The position numbers and the translations under genes were made by a program. A stretch of 42,462 bases of DNA from Candidatus Saccharimonadota bacterium (GTDB taxonomy: Bacteria; Patescibacteriota; Saccharimonadia; Saccharimonadales; Saccharimonadaceae): NCBI GenBank assembly GCA_017404325.1, contig JAFRCO010000003.1:1-42462 (forward strand), in the 5' to 3' direction. Numbering within the stretch: the stretch's first letter is position 1; each line of letters begins with the position of its first letter. A model generated the notes under the pieces. The model was not told where the DNA came from and made no database searches. It saw only the letters and a program-made list of their open reading frames with translations. This document shows, in pieces, positions 17,187 through 40,676 of the stretch.

Positions 17187-17216
17187 GATGCCTAAATTGA
17201 CTGAATAGTAAAAGTA

Positions 17217-17225
17217 TGGTAAAAT
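17217..17225 (+). promoter_or_regulatory. Extended -10 promoter of the 161-residue orphan gene
   Basis: TGGTAAAAT, with a leader of about 40 bases and a strong AAGGAGG (17258-17264) before ATG 17273. Confidence 0.55.
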
Positions 17226-17272
17226 AGTAACGGGTTTTATTTTTCCTAGAAAAAATCAAGGAGGGCGTAAAC

Positions 17273-17758
17273 ATGGGAAAAAAAGCACGTTACTATTTTA
17301 CTATTCAAGAGCTTCAACAAAAAGCTCTGAAGGCATGGAAAACCTACGCAGAAGAGTATAGGAACTTAGTTCCTAAGTATCAAAGTCTTCTATCGAAGAA
17401 AAGGTGGCTAAAAATGAACGAGCGTGGCTATGGAAATATGCCAATACGCAGACTCAACAAGAGCGTTCTTGAAGAATTTGTCCAAATTCCTTTTTTCGAT
17501 ATCAAATCCGAAAAGGATGCAGTTGATTTTGTTCATGGACTTGAATATGGTGAGCTGAATAATCTTGTGGCAACTATTTATGCCGCATTAGATGACCATT
17601 CTTACAGAACCATAAAATCACGTATTAGTGATTACGAGCATGAGATAAAATACTGGAAGTACTCCAGAGCGTTTGGGTATGACCCTACATATCCAGTATC
17701 ATCGAGCCAACACGCAAGAAGCACTGTCAGGCGCTCGAGCGGATCATCAGATGAGTAG
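17273..17758 (+). CDS. Uncharacterised 161-residue basic protein inserted in the ribosomal cluster
   Basis: I do not recognise the family. The protein is soluble and mostly helical, rich in Lys, Arg and Tyr (KARYYFTIQELQQKALKAW at the N-terminus, ISDYEHEIKYWKYSRAFGYDP near residue 120-140). It ends in a Ser/Arg-rich tail of about 20 residues (SSSQHARSTVRRSSGSSDE). There is no signal peptide, membrane helix or cysteine. Its own promoter, a near-perfect Shine-Dalgarno and terminators on both sides make it an independent, probably well-expressed unit splitting rplK from rplA. The composition suggests nucleic-acid or ribosome binding, but nothing proves this. Confidence 0.8.
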   Translation: MGKKARYYFTIQELQQKALKAWKTYAEEYRNLVPKYQSLLSKKRWLKMNERGYGNMPIRRLNKSVLEEFVQIPFFDIKSEKDAVDFVHGLEYGELNNLVATIYAALDDHSYRTIKSRISDYEHEIKYWKYSRAFGYDPTYPVSSSQHARSTVRRSSGSSDE

Positions 17759-17885: not shown

Positions 17886-18794
17886 ATGGCTAAAGAAGAG
17901 GCCAAAAACTTAAAAGATACTGAAGTAGTCGTTGAGGCTCCGGAAGTAGAAGAACCAGAAAAATTTGCAAAATCTGGTAAGAAATCAAAGAAGCATATTG
18001 AAGAAGTAAAAGCTGAAGAAGAACGCCAAGCTCGTAAAGAAGAGCGTAAGGCTTCTGAAGCAGTCGAGAAATCGAAAGGCGCTAAACCAATTGTACGCCC
18101 ACTCATCGAACGACGTGGTAAGAAATATCAAGAAGTAGCTAAATTAGTCGAAAAGGGAAAAGTATATAGTCTTAAAGATGCAATTGAACTTGCAATTAAG
18201 ACTAATCCGGCTAAATTTGACGCTTCGGTTGAAATTCACGCAAGACTCGGCGTTGATCCACGCCAAGCTGATCAAAATATTCGTACTACTATCGTACTTC
18301 CGAATGGAAACGGTAAAACTGTACGCGTGGCTGTTTTTGCGCCAGCTGATGTCTGTAAAGCCGCAAAAGCTGCAGGAGCAGATATTGCCGAAGATGAAGA
18401 ATTCTTAAAGAAACTTGATAAAGGTACGATTGACTTCGACGTATTAATTTCGACTCCTGCATACATGCCAAAGCTTGGTAAATATGCCCGTGTTCTTGGT
18501 CCAAAAGGTTTGATGCCAAACCCGAAAGCCGGGACGGTAACGATGGACGTTGAAAAGGCTGTAAAAGAATCTAAAGCTGGTAAAGTTGAATATCGTGTCG
18601 ACAAACAATCGATTGTTCATATTGGAATTGGTAAAGTTTCGTTTGGGACTGAAAAGTTACTTGAGAATGCTAATACGTTCTTTGATAGCTTAAAGGCGCA
18701 AAAACCTGCTTCGCTCAAAGGTTCTTATGTGAAGTCGGTATTCATCACTACTACTATGGGTCCTTCGATTCAACTAGAAAATCTTTATAACTAA
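17886..18794 (+). CDS. rplA: 50S ribosomal protein L1 with charged N-terminal extension
   Basis: The 302-residue protein is about 70 residues longer than typical L1. Residues 1-75 are a Lys/Glu/Arg-rich, low-complexity extension with likely coiled-coil character. The L1 core starts at about RGKKYQEVAKLVEKG (residue 77). It contains DQNIRTTIVLPNG, the domain II segment ISTPAYMPKLGKYARVLGPKGLMPNPKAGTV-type signature (about 185-215) and VEYRVDKQSIVHIGIG. L1 forms the stalk that guides tRNA release. The extension recalls the Lys/Glu-rich tail of SecE in the same region. A palindromic element begins about 6 bases after the stop. Confidence 0.96.
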   Translation: MAKEEAKNLKDTEVVVEAPEVEEPEKFAKSGKKSKKHIEEVKAEEERQARKEERKASEAVEKSKGAKPIVRPLIERRGKKYQEVAKLVEKGKVYSLKDAIELAIKTNPAKFDASVEIHARLGVDPRQADQNIRTTIVLPNGNGKTVRVAVFAPADVCKAAKAAGADIAEDEEFLKKLDKGTIDFDVLISTPAYMPKLGKYARVLGPKGLMPNPKAGTVTMDVEKAVKESKAGKVEYRVDKQSIVHIGIGKVSFGTEKLLENANTFFDSLKAQKPASLKGSYVKSVFITTTMGPSIQLENLYN

Positions 18795-18799
18795 TCTTA

Positions 18800-18915
18800 T
18801 ATAACAAAATAATATCTTTGAGACACGGGTCGCTTTCGCCCATCGTCATGGGGAAAGCGCCCTCAAGCTCGGTCGTAACCTCCGCATGTTCCCAAAGATA
18901 TTATTTTTTGTTATA
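18800..18915. repeat. Palindromic element A (GC-rich core with locus-specific inverted arms)
   Basis: The left arm AACAAAATAATATCTTTG (18803-18820) matches the inverted right arm CAAAGATATTATTTTTTGTT (18893-18912) apart from two extra T. Pairing extends through TATA/TATA to 18800 and 18915. The 72-base core is far richer in G+C than its surroundings. It holds a hairpin CGCTTTC/GAAAGCG (18831-18859) enclosing CCCAT-CGTC-ATGGG (18839-18852). On the minus strand that loop reads GACG, the same as in element C. ACCTC lies at 18878-18882. The right arm contains the promoter of the next gene. The element could also act as terminator for rplA. Confidence 0.75.
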
Positions 18916-18917
18916 AT
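18909..18917 (+). promoter_or_regulatory. Extended -10 promoter inside the right arm of element A
   Basis: TGTTATAAT, then 9 bases to ATG 18927. Almost the whole box lies in the right arm of the inverted repeat, so the fold could mask it. Confidence 0.6.
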
Positions 18918-18926
18918 GAAATTATT

Positions 18927-19511
18927 ATGGATAAGATCAAAGAAATTGCAAATAGAATTGGGGGAATGGAAATATATGAATCGTTAATAGTGGCAGCAAT
19001 TGGGCTTGCCGTTTTATTATTCGGATACCGAATTAAGAAAGTTGCCTTCTTTATAATTTGGTTTTTGATTGGTTATAATCTTATGTTACTTTTGATGCCG
19101 CTTATTAATGGTGCAGTTCCACAAATTGCAACCGATCATTTGTGGCAAATTCTACTACCGATTGCTGGTGGCCTACTTTTAGCTTTGTGCGGGTTTTCAA
19201 TCGAAAAACTCTGTGTTGCTGGGATTTGTTTCTTCCTAGTAATGCTAATTACAGTACAATATTTCGGAACTGATATCTTAACCTTAGCAATTGGAGCGAT
19301 TATTGGCGTAGTCGCAGCTGCCGCAGCAACCGCAATGATAAAGCCAGCAATTATTATCGCAACTTCGATTGCTGGAGCGTGGGCTTTAACGCTCGCATTA
19401 TTAAATATTTTCCCAGTAATTGATGGCGCAGTTTTCTTCTTGCCGTTTATTGCGGCGTTTGCTTTGCTTGGTGCGATTTTCCAATTTGCGACTACAAAAC
19501 ATTGTGACTAG
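18927..19511 (+). CDS. TM198/DUF4203-like seven-helix membrane protein
   Basis: The 194-residue protein is almost entirely hydrophobic, with about seven membrane helices starting near residue 17. A short polar N-terminus (MDKIKEIANRIGGMEIYES) and tail (TTKHCD) flank them. The repeated glycine-rich helices (LAVLLFGYRIKKVAFFIIWFLIG, AIGAIIGVVAAAAATAMIKPA) resemble the TM7S3/TM198-like (DUF4203) group. No catalytic motif is visible and the function is unknown. It starts with almost no leader, downstream of palindromic element A, and precedes the L10 leader. Confidence 0.65.
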   Translation: MDKIKEIANRIGGMEIYESLIVAAIGLAVLLFGYRIKKVAFFIIWFLIGYNLMLLLMPLINGAVPQIATDHLWQILLPIAGGLLLALCGFSIEKLCVAGICFFLVMLITVQYFGTDILTLAIGAIIGVVAAAAATAMIKPAIIIATSIAGAWALTLALLNIFPVIDGAVFFLPFIAAFALLGAIFQFATTKHCD

Positions 19512-19528
19512 ACAATTTTAATTGATTT

Positions 19529-19537
19529 TGTTATAAT
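19529..19537 (+). promoter_or_regulatory. Extended -10 promoter of rplJ-rplL
   Basis: TGTTATAAT, with predicted transcription start near 19544 at the foot of the L10 leader structure. Confidence 0.65.
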
Positions 19538-19544
19538 TAGATTA

Positions 19545-19640
19545 GTTACCAAAGACAGCGACGGGAGTAATCCTTAATTATGTCGCCGAGGAGAATTTCT
19601 TATAATTTGTTTGGTGACGCTATTTAACAATTAGCTAACT
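19545..19640 (+). ncRNA. Ribosomal protein L10 leader (autoregulatory mRNA structure)
   Basis: The sequence TTACCAAAGACAGCGACGGG and the later TGTCGCCGAGGAGAA match the conserved kink-turn part of the L10 leader family. GTTACC (19545-19550) pairs with GGTGAC (19613-19618), allowing one G-U pair. GCGAC (19558-19562) pairs with GTCGC (19582-19586). In known cases L10 or the L10-L12 complex binds here and lowers translation of rplJ-rplL. The exact 3' end is uncertain. Confidence 0.85.
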
Positions 19641-19669
19641 AAATATTAAAATAACCAAAGGAACTTTTT

Positions 19670-20191
19670 ATGGCAATTACAAAGGATAAAAAGAACGAAT
19701 TGGTTGCTGATTTGACGGAGCTTCTTTCTAATGCAAAAACTACAGTTTATGCCAAATATCAAGGCTTAACTGTAGCAGAATTGCAAGAACTACGAAAAGC
19801 CGCTCGCGAAGCGGGCATAAAAATTAAGGTAGTTAAAAACCGTTTAGTACGAGTCGCAATGGGTCAAATTGCGGTTTATAAAGATACTGATACGACTGGT
19901 TTAACCGGACAGTTACTTTATGCAATTTCGGCTGATGACGAAGTTGCACCAGCAAAAGTTTTAGCAACTTTTGCAAAGACTCATGATGCACTTGATCTAG
20001 TTGGTGGTTTTAACGATCTTGGTAATGCTTTATCGAAAGACGAAGTTAACGCTCTTGCGGCTATGCCGAGCAAGAACGAACTTATTGCGCAGGTCGTTGC
20101 ACAACTTCTCTCGCCGGTTACAGATTCTATTTCTGGTCTTTCTGGCGGACTTTCGGGAATTATCTCGGGTCTAGAAGCGCACGCAAGTTAG
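19670..20191 (+). CDS. rplJ: 50S ribosomal protein L10
   Basis: The 173-residue protein is full length. It starts AITKDKKNELVADLTELLSNAKTTVYAKYQGLTVAELQELRKAAREAG, the usual L10 N-terminal rRNA-binding domain, with KVVKNRLVRVA (about 53-63). The C-terminal helix after residue 140 (IAQVVAQLLSPVTDSISGLSGGL) anchors L12 dimers. AAAGGAAC precedes the ATG. Expression is likely controlled by the L10 leader upstream. Confidence 0.97.
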   Translation: MAITKDKKNELVADLTELLSNAKTTVYAKYQGLTVAELQELRKAAREAGIKIKVVKNRLVRVAMGQIAVYKDTDTTGLTGQLLYAISADDEVAPAKVLATFAKTHDALDLVGGFNDLGNALSKDEVNALAAMPSKNELIAQVVAQLLSPVTDSISGLSGGLSGIISGLEAHAS

Positions 20192-23426: not shown

Positions 23427-23945
23427 ATGTCTGAAATACCAGAAAAACAAATAAAAAGATTACGCACGCTTCTAGGTGAAGCTGAAACTAGTTTGTCAGC
23501 TGCAAAGGAGCTCTTAATTTCGATTATTGGAGATGGCGAAACAATTTCGGCTCCACGCGAGACGATTGTTTCTGGACCGGAAGGAAAGATTATTGAGGGG
23601 ATCTTTGATGGACAAATTATGATTGGTCCAGATGGAAAGAATTACCCAGTTCCGGCAAACTATGCTTCGAAGTCAAAGCTAGTTGAAGGCGATATTATGA
23701 AGCTTACAATTACTGAAGATGGTAAGTTCCTTTATAAACAGATTGGTCCAGTCGAAAGGAAGACTGTTATTGGCACTTTAGTTCATCATGATGACAAATA
23801 TTTTGTAGAAGTTTCTGGCAAGGAATATCAGATTCTTTATGCTTCAGTTACTTATTTCCATCTTCGTGAAGGTTCACAAGTTTCCGTCACAATTCCGGTA
23901 AATAATGACGACGCGACTTGGGCAGCGGTCGAAGCTGCTCTATAA
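23427..23945 (+). CDS. Conserved-looking 172-residue protein co-transcribed with dnaX
   Basis: No family is recognised with confidence. Residues 1-35 form a helix that could be a coiled coil (KQIKRLRTLLGEAETSLSAAKELL). The rest is beta-rich with repeated short loops (GQIMIGPDGKNYPVPANY, VEGDIMKLTITEDGKFLYKQIGP, TVIGTLVHHDDKYFVEVSG), which suggests one or two small barrel (OB- or KOW-like) domains. The start is ATG 23427 or the adjoining GTG 23424; neither has ideal spacing. The stop overlaps the dnaX start in TAATG, so the protein is likely made in step with DnaX. Confidence 0.75.
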   Translation: MSEIPEKQIKRLRTLLGEAETSLSAAKELLISIIGDGETISAPRETIVSGPEGKIIEGIFDGQIMIGPDGKNYPVPANYASKSKLVEGDIMKLTITEDGKFLYKQIGPVERKTVIGTLVHHDDKYFVEVSGKEYQILYASVTYFHLREGSQVSVTIPVNNDDATWAAVEAAL

Positions 23946-25312
23946 TGACAAAAGCGCTTTATCGAAAATATAGACCAAAAACCCTTGAAGGGGTTATTGG
24001 TCAACCTCAAGTAACTGATGTATTAGCTAAGTCTTTAAAGACTGGTAAAATATCACACGCTTATCTTTTTGTCGGTCCGCGTGGGACCGGAAAAACTTCA
24101 GTTGCACGAATTTTAGCACATGAAATAAATGGTTTTTCTTATGAAATTGAGGATGACTATGTTGATATTATCGAAATTGATGGGGCTAGCAATCGTGGAA
24201 TTGACAACATAAGGGATTTACGTGAAAAAGCTTTAATCGCACCTACGAGTGGAAAATATAAAGTATATATTATCGATGAAGTCCATATGTTAACGAAAGA
24301 AGCGTTTAATGCGCTGCTAAAAATACTTGAAGAACCGCCAAAGCATGTTGTTTTTGTTATGGCGACGACAGACGCTTATAAAGTTCCGGTTACGATTACT
24401 TCTAGAGCTCAGACTTATACTTTTACACTCGCGGACAAAAAGACAATGTTCGATTTTTTAAAGTCTGTAGCCGAAAAGGAAAAAATCAAAATCAATGATA
24501 AAGCTTTATCTTTAATTGTGAAAAAAGGTGGGGGATCTTTCCGGGATTCATTATCGTTATTAGATCAGATTTCAACTTTGTCAGATTCGAAAATTACGGA
24601 AGAGCTTGTAATTTCTGCTATGGGGCTACCGGAAGATGAGAAGATTAAAGCATTATTAGAGGAATATCTTAATGGTGATGTTGTAAAAATCACAACAATA
24701 TTGAAAAATCTATTAGTTTCTGGAGTAAAACCAGAAACTTTAGCTGAAGAATTGATTTCAAATATTATTGAAAACCCGCAGGTAGAATATCTTCCTTTGC
24801 TTGAAAAACTCCCGGATGTAAAAGCTCCTTTTCCGGAAGCAAAATTATTAGTCGCTCTGATTGTAAAAACATCAGATACTTCTCACTCGGGAGCGCGTCC
24901 GGCCGACCAGTCACCACTTGCGGCCGGCGTTACACCTCGTGCTGCCGCGCTCCGGACCCCCCTTCGTCGAGAAGTATCTGATTCCGCCACTCCCACCAGT
25001 GACGCCACTAATTTCAATTGGGAAGAGTTTTCGGGTCGAGTTAAGGAGGCAAATGATGCGATTTATGCGCAGCTTTTAAAGACGGAACACAATTTTTCAA
25101 ATAATGTTTTGGAAATCTACCCGCAAAGAAAAATTGTTAAAACGATTTTGGAACGAGACAATAATAAAAGGATTTTAATCGATGCGGGCGGTGGAATAAA
25201 AATCGAAATTAAAGAGGTTGGGGTGAATAAACCAAAAGACGAGACGCTTGCCAAGATTTCTGATATAATGGGAGGAGAGGTAAAAAACGATGGAGGAGAA
25301 AACCCGTTCTAA
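23945..25312 (+). CDS. dnaX: DNA polymerase III clamp-loader subunit (gamma/tau), zinc module reduced, palindromic insert
   Basis: The 455-residue protein starts MTKALYRKYRPKTLEGVIGQ and has Walker A GPRGTGKTS (44-52), Walker B IIDEVHMLTKEAFNALLKILEEPP and sensor-1 MATTDAYKVP. Two oddities stand out. The Cys4 zinc module normally found between Walker A and DLIEIDAASN is absent: only HEINGFSYEIEDDYVD lies there and no Cys is present. Also, the SRC motif reads SRA. Residues about 309-346, between the AAA+ core and the C-terminal domain, are encoded by palindromic element B. The C-terminus is short, with no long tau-type tail. The start ATG 23945 shares a base with the preceding stop. Confidence 0.93.
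   Translation: MTKALYRKYRPKTLEGVIGQPQVTDVLAKSLKTGKISHAYLFVGPRGTGKTSVARILAHEINGFSYEIEDDYVDIIEIDGASNRGIDNIRDLREKALIAPTSGKYKVYIIDEVHMLTKEAFNALLKILEEPPKHVVFVMATTDAYKVPVTITSRAQTYTFTLADKKTMFDFLKSVAEKEKIKINDKALSLIVKKGGGSFRDSLSLLDQISTLSDSKITEELVISAMGLPEDEKIKALLEEYLNGDVVKITTILKNLLVSGVKPETLAEELISNIIENPQVEYLPLLEKLPDVKAPFPEAKLLVALIVKTSDTSHSGARPADQSPLAAGVTPRAAALRTPLRREVSDSATPTSDATNFNWEEFSGRVKEANDAIYAQLLKTEHNFSNNVLEIYPQRKIVKTILERDNNKRILIDAGGGIKIEIKEVGVNKPKDETLAKISDIMGGEVKNDGGENPF
24871..24982. repeat. Palindromic element B inside dnaX
   Basis: ATCAGATACTTCTC (24871-24884) and GAGAAGTATCTGAT (24969-24982) form a perfect 14-base inverted repeat around an 84-base GC-rich core. Within the core, GGAGCGCG (24890-24897) pairs with CGCGCTCC (24946-24953), and CCGGCCG (24899-24905) pairs with CGGCCGG (24921-24927). 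ACCTCG occurs at 24934-24939, as in element C. The frame stays open through it, adding a Pro/Ala/Arg/Ser-rich linker to DnaX. The arms do not match those of elements A or C. Confidence 0.8.

Positions 25313-38505: not shown

Positions 38506-40676
<2,171 letters not shown>

Follow-up and report, generated by a model that had tools for sequence, protein, structure and literature searches.

The three GC-rich islands of the window, by which we mean the whole 42,462-nucleotide stretch that was analysed (contig C12, from a genome of 766 kb), belong to a single family of palindromic elements, which includes the middle island (copy B) and is larger than first described. Each copy has a GC-rich core of about 79 bp, made up of two hairpins on a closing stem, and this core is framed by arms, inverted repeats with a median length of 17-18 bp that are different at every locus. 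Housekeeping genes host most of the copies, and their reading frames stay intact. As the best reading of the comparative patterns, and one that we consider rather probable, the arms of this dispersed double-hairpin core would be made and kept matched by template switching.

In the window, all three islands were found where a preliminary description had placed them, each as an arm-framed core, with weaker arms in copy C. ORFs and Pfam matches bear out that copy A lies in the gap between rplA (17886-18794; PF00687, 1e-62) and a membrane-protein gene (18927-19511; weak TM7S3/TM198-like match, below cut-off), all on the forward strand. Its double-hairpin core (18818-18895; 70.7 bits with covariance model R1) is preceded by an A-rich left arm lying outside the core (18797-18817; inverted repeat I1, with the core edge taken from the covariance-model match) and followed by a T-rich, terminator-like right arm (18896-18916; placed by the inverted repeat and site comparison). 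The full inverted repeat, 18797-18823 with 18890-18916, spans 27 nt and is 85% complementary. As had been proposed, the right arm overlaps the promoter of the next gene, since it runs into a putative -10 hexamer, TATAAT (18912-18917), recognised by consensus match alone. Copy B (core 24886-24964; 73.5 bits, with an open ORF) lies in frame in a variable linker of a dnaX-like gene for DNA polymerase III gamma/tau (23918-25312, forward strand; PF13177, PF22608 and orthologues), and its arms at 24871-24884 and 24969-24982 (inverted repeat I11) are 14/14 complementary (100%). Copy C (core 39085-39165; 69.1 bits) is carried in frame and antisense by tgt, encoding queuine tRNA-ribosyltransferase (38506-39696, reverse strand; PF01702, 1.1e-123), between arms read from the sequence at 39072-39084 and 39163-39174.

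The arm scores of A, B and C were 16.5, 14.0 and 8.0, against a 99th percentile of 9.5 in a mispaired control; the inverted repeats of A and B are among the top-listed of the window, and copy C has short, weak arms. A shared skeleton had been reported for the cores of A and C; B had been left out, but has the same core, as its covariance-model score compares with those of the other two, all three copies having been in the seed alignment of the model. The window contains a background of 28 inverted-repeat pairs (12 nt or longer, within 200 nt). Since a single inverted repeat is thus common, the case rests on the recurrence of the core, that is, on the family. Two further structures were observed in the window: a long AT-rich inverted repeat without a GC-rich core at 17202-17307 (27 nt arms, 85%), which also has a 12-nt perfect pair 82 nt apart, and a Ribosomal protein L10 leader (RF00557) downstream of copy A at 19531-19679.

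Each of A, B and C retrieved further copies when used as a DNA query, and a covariance model was built from 11 copies, these three included. In the window's own genome, the model detected 11 copies, which are the 11 seeds and no more. Searching Saccharibacteria with this model recovered the family across the genus, 152 of whose 174 species genomes have at least one match; the cores do recur, and the claim of a multi-copy family is confirmed. Copies per genome are lower bounds, several genomes having at least 27 scored candidates, and many loci come from metagenome assemblies. Sampling the whole class gave matches in 75 of 295 genomes, which belong to 4 of the 129 genera and all to the same taxonomic family; the matches beyond the genus were weak. 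A pattern scan of GTDB DNA gave at least 119 stretches, of which those listed, including one from Candidatus Nanosyncoccus alces, are mostly from Saccharibacteria of the ruminant gut; a few matches in Streptomyces and elsewhere are probably due to chance. A viral origin was considered and rejected, as the single pattern match in IMG/VR (without arms, score 6.0) was judged to be chance. At the gathering score, Rfam had no match to the element in the window, and two other copies gave no match at E ≤ 5.

The core is composed of a GGG/CCC stem, hairpin 1 (GCGTC..CCCGTCGYCACGGG..GCGCT) and hairpin 2 (CTCGCGCTGCCGCGCTCC or variants). In an alignment of 117 copies, 96.3% of the cells were standard pairs, a statistic to be read bearing in mind that the model used to fit the alignment already had a very similar structure, and both-side changes were found in 371 cells compared with 132 in shuffles. 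An internally shortened core was observed in der/engA (G000:C4:77577-77634; L021, L182), where the arms are still strong.

The first sample comprised 150 distinct copies, and in 91% of these the arms scored above the 99th percentile of arms mispaired across loci. In genome UBA1235, three cores that are identical at 79/79 positions (two in L059, one in L065) carry three unrelated arm pairs, each of them mirrored. For core pairs of at least 97% identity the mean arm identity was 0.44-0.47, with a baseline of 0.37-0.38 for distant cores. Unrelated arms on identical cores indicate that the arms do not travel with the core, and inheritance of the arms with the core was ruled out on this ground. That the arms are locus-specific and mirrored, as first described, is thereby borne out. 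The two identical cores in L059 (240-318 and 1425-1503) are situated 1.2 kb apart in one tRNA-synthetase-like ORF and have different arms.

At orthologous occupied sites, paired arm positions showed 207 both-side changes versus 50 one-side changes, counted only in columns that pair in both species, a condition biased towards pairing; as orthologous pairs share history and are not independent, this ratio serves as a guide and carries no probability. Among the 207 both-side changes, 195 were Watson-Crick in both species. Mismatches of arms in genes, read in the mRNA sense, comprised 31 G-U and 42 A-C, modest numbers that give no sign of selection on mRNA pairing; maintenance of the pairing by mRNA structure was therefore rejected. 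In the core sense, an excess of A-C is concentrated 4-7 nt from the core, and was for this reason not taken as strand-specific wobble.

Core orientation was opposite in 43 of 125 orthologous pairs. In L046/L160, the flanks are 91.5% and the cores 99% identical, the outer flanks are collinear, and the inner 16 nt of one left arm equal the right arm of the other (16/16), the reverse match being nearly as good; the event is an inversion whose breakpoints fall inside the arms. In L189/L207, core type and orientation both differ between flanks of 92% identity. A species pair close enough to display a single arm-changing event was not found.

The preliminary description lacked the insight that the majority of copies are located in frame inside genes and that the intergenic ones tend to terminator-like A-tract/T-tract arms. 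In total, 104 of 150 copies lie within ORFs that are open through the element, in both orientations, and the net difference between occupied and empty sites was a multiple of three in 119 of 139 comparisons. Genic copies read the core in all six frames (16/38/7 sense, 15/24/10 antisense), which rules out a conserved encoded peptide. Among the hosts, Pfam identifies mnmA, elongation-factor-like GTPases, tRNA synthetases, obg, der/engA, dnaX, queA, tatD and ligA, and a trmD host was named from sequence; in the window, B is hosted by dnaX and C by tgt.

Arms with an A-tract on the left and a T-tract on the right were found in 26 of 72 intergenic and 9 of 110 genic copies (p = 5e-6). The copy-A site, the 3' end of rplA, varies among relatives: four (L243, L245, L246, L250) have an ordinary intrinsic terminator, L248 and, inverted, L247 have an element of the copy-A family with A-tract/T-tract arms, L249 and L252 have hairpins with other cores, and L251 and L253 have short gaps with no evident hairpin. 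A simple terminator scan did not flag copy A. Our inference is that intergenic copies settle in terminator stems and take these over.

Occupied sites were compared with empty ones between species. Among 53 sites with an empty relative, the gain beyond the core had a median of 11 nt, amounting to less than 10 nt at 26 sites, 10-29 nt at 16 and at least 30 nt at 11. In a LeuRS-like gene (L059 vs L128) and in MnmA (L069 vs L031), conserved host codons are found in one arm and their mirror in the other. A simple alignment test on 40 sites found one host-like arm plus its mirror in 9, both arms host-like in 8 and neither in 8. The notion that the arms mirror the insertion site therefore stands in so far as the arms are mirrored, but they are not simply a mirror of the untouched site, as the gain ranges from the core alone to the core plus two arms. 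In L219 vs L233, for instance, about 120 nt were gained, both arms included. A close relative that could supply exact empty sites for copies A, B and C was not found, as none of the relatives listed exceeded about 82% identity over the queried stretch. No target-site duplication was visible by eye at L219/L233 or L215/L103, a reading made tentative by the divergence of even the closest pairs.

In obg (L215 vs L103), 114 nt were gained inside a divergent tract of about 240 nt. This tract (L215:1455-1700) is 78% identical, compared with about 97% elsewhere, which suggests that the L215 allele may have been imported by recombination. Empty sites were not unusually hairpin-prone (mean rank 0.57, p = 0.16) and are mostly genic; insertion into pre-existing hairpins was thus unsupported. 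At old sites the best paralogous core beat the orthologue in 72-78% of cases, a figure in which the best of several paralogues is set against one orthologue, and such paralogue-like cores would fit core turnover by conversion or new insertion.

If template switching shapes the arms, the stem of the core would let the replication fork switch template between its two sides, and one flank would be copied as the reverse complement of the other. Such switches would repair arm-arm mismatches and would sometimes invert the spacer. In genes, the variants that preserve the frame and the conserved side would survive, with the result that one arm may stay host sequence and the linker side is turned into its mirror; between genes, the arms would merge with the upstream terminator stem. 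Homogenised arms and inverted spacers of inverted repeats have been described as products of template switching (PMC8604942), which is also described as able to create and maintain hairpins or stems (PMC8794818). Template switching alone would explain why identical cores have unrelated arms, why arms change in concert, why cores are inverted and why a wobble bias is missing. The model, drawn from comparative patterns alone, covers the arms and leaves the spread of the cores, whether by transposition or by gene conversion among sites, outside its reach. Between the two mechanisms offered previously, template switching fits best with concerted arms, in-place inversions and no G-U excess, and selection for paired arms fits less. 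Against template switching, the clean pattern of one host arm and one mirror was seen at only 9 of the 40 sites, and several sites gained the core plus about two arms (L219 vs L233; MnmA with 117 nt), so that at some sites the arms may arrive with the insert; in-place inversion could also be explained by recombination between the arms. We only tentatively advance the more far-reaching proposal that a bare core spreads and then, through template switching, fashions its inverted ends out of the host DNA of each site, with essential genes carrying in-frame palindromes that are continually rewritten and inverted.

Alternatively, selection on RNA structure might keep the arms paired, as terminator stems in intergenic copies and as a hairpin for excision or ribosome bypass in genic ones. 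This would agree with the intergenic enrichment of A-tract/T-tract arms, with the plain intrinsic terminator at site A in several relatives and with the co-variation of arms between orthologues, but G-U does not exceed A-C in genes in the mRNA sense, the use of six frames and the ORFs open through the insert make excision or bypass needless, and the selection would have to act alike across dozens of unrelated genes, for which we regard it as unlikely. One-step insertion, in which an enzyme adds the core together with a fold-back copy of the target flank and the arms are fixed at insertion, is in our estimate quite unlikely: identical cores with unrelated arms, an extra length of core plus roughly one arm at about 16 of 53 sites and the sites with one host-like and one new arm would be expected from it, whereas 26 of the 53 sites gained about the core length (less than 10 nt excess), concerted arm change continues long after insertion, and no candidate enzyme was found (a Y1 transposase in 0 of 24 genus genomes). 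Cores might also have been swapped or homogenised in older palindromic sites by gene conversion or nested loop insertion, leaving the arms as relics of earlier elements or terminators. The frequent advantage of paralogous cores at old sites (best of several versus one), different element families at the same site in sister genomes (L186/L234, L210/L238), nested inserts in the hairpin-1 loop (L045, the second copy of L215, L239) and an arm motif common to several core families argue for such swapping; that empty sites are not hairpin-prone, and that arms are absent from empty genic homologues in several cases, leaves it very unlikely.

Rickettsia palindromic elements (RPEs), repeats of about 150 bp of which many are in frame in unrelated genes and encode a conserved peptide (PMC10969869), had been named as the closest analogue. 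The analogy is apt for in-frame tolerance in many unrelated genes and for a small palindromic repeat, but the likeness need not mean kinship, and the core here has about 79 bp, uses six frames without a conserved peptide and has locus-specific arms. Double-hairpin elements of the mtDNA of the fungus Allomyces are described as mostly intergenic with some in genes, and flanking duplications are not reported for them (PMC2800124); they and related hairpin-forming elements share the small size and the double-hairpin architecture but reside in organelle genomes, and locus-specific mirrored arms and in-place inversion do not figure in that description. REP/REPIN and CGTC-REP sequences are likewise bacterial hairpin repeats, some of them intragenic; CGTC-REPs lack a dedicated transposase, and these repeats are defined by an unpaired GTAG or CGTC tag at one end, with stems of 8-9 bp and a CCA tail for the CGTC type (PMC3733652). 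The present elements, unlike these, have no terminal GTAG/CGTC tag and no CCA tail, their stems exceed 8-9 bp in the 117-copy alignment, and they are mainly genic. A Y1 (RAYT) transposase gene (PF01797) was absent from all 24 genus genomes searched, the window's own included, and Y1/RAYT mobilisation was rejected; PF01797 is present in several other families of the order. In contrast to MITEs, constant terminal inverted repeats are missing, and arms on identical cores are unrelated. Arm homogenisation and spacer inversion are shared with quasipalindrome template switching (PMC8604942, PMC8794818), which is known as a mutational mechanism, whereas in the present case the mechanism would operate at the many sites of a dispersed repeat. 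Coding palindromes of Nematomorpha mtDNA are also perfect inverted repeats inside functional genes, but have no shared mobile-looking core, and both their arms encode conserved protein (PMC6649704). A search of open literature turned up no paper that names such repeats in Saccharibacteria.

With well over 100 copies sampled, many of them orthologous, the family provides a natural replicated system whose sequences allow one to follow how inverted repeats are created, repaired and inverted, and with these copies the question how long stems arise and stay paired becomes directly testable. It also illustrates that the dnaX, tgt, mnmA, trmD, obg and tRNA synthetase genes of tiny, reduced genomes tolerate palindromes in frame, and that terminators there may be occupied by repeats.

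Different hairpin elements were observed at one site in L186 vs L234, L210 vs L238 and L206 vs L239, with flanks of about 94-96% identity, which indicates that sites turn over. A second hairpin family has a CCCCC..GGGGGTCCCCC core and arms with an internal loop, GGGTCCTG../..CACCC, and its copies were located at L234:1565, L238:4419 and L053:4946 and, on the reverse strand, at L067:6136, L065:5997 and L236:4929. In 12 of 182 copies of the first family, the arm motif GGGTCCTG..CACCC lies 13-14 nt away from the core, and it is also seen together with further core types. Nested insertions in the hairpin-1 loop of first-family copies were found at L239:279-500 (reverse strand), L215:640-900 and L045:5992-6105, and two of these three share a palindrome resembling GAGAACTAA..TTAGTTCTC.
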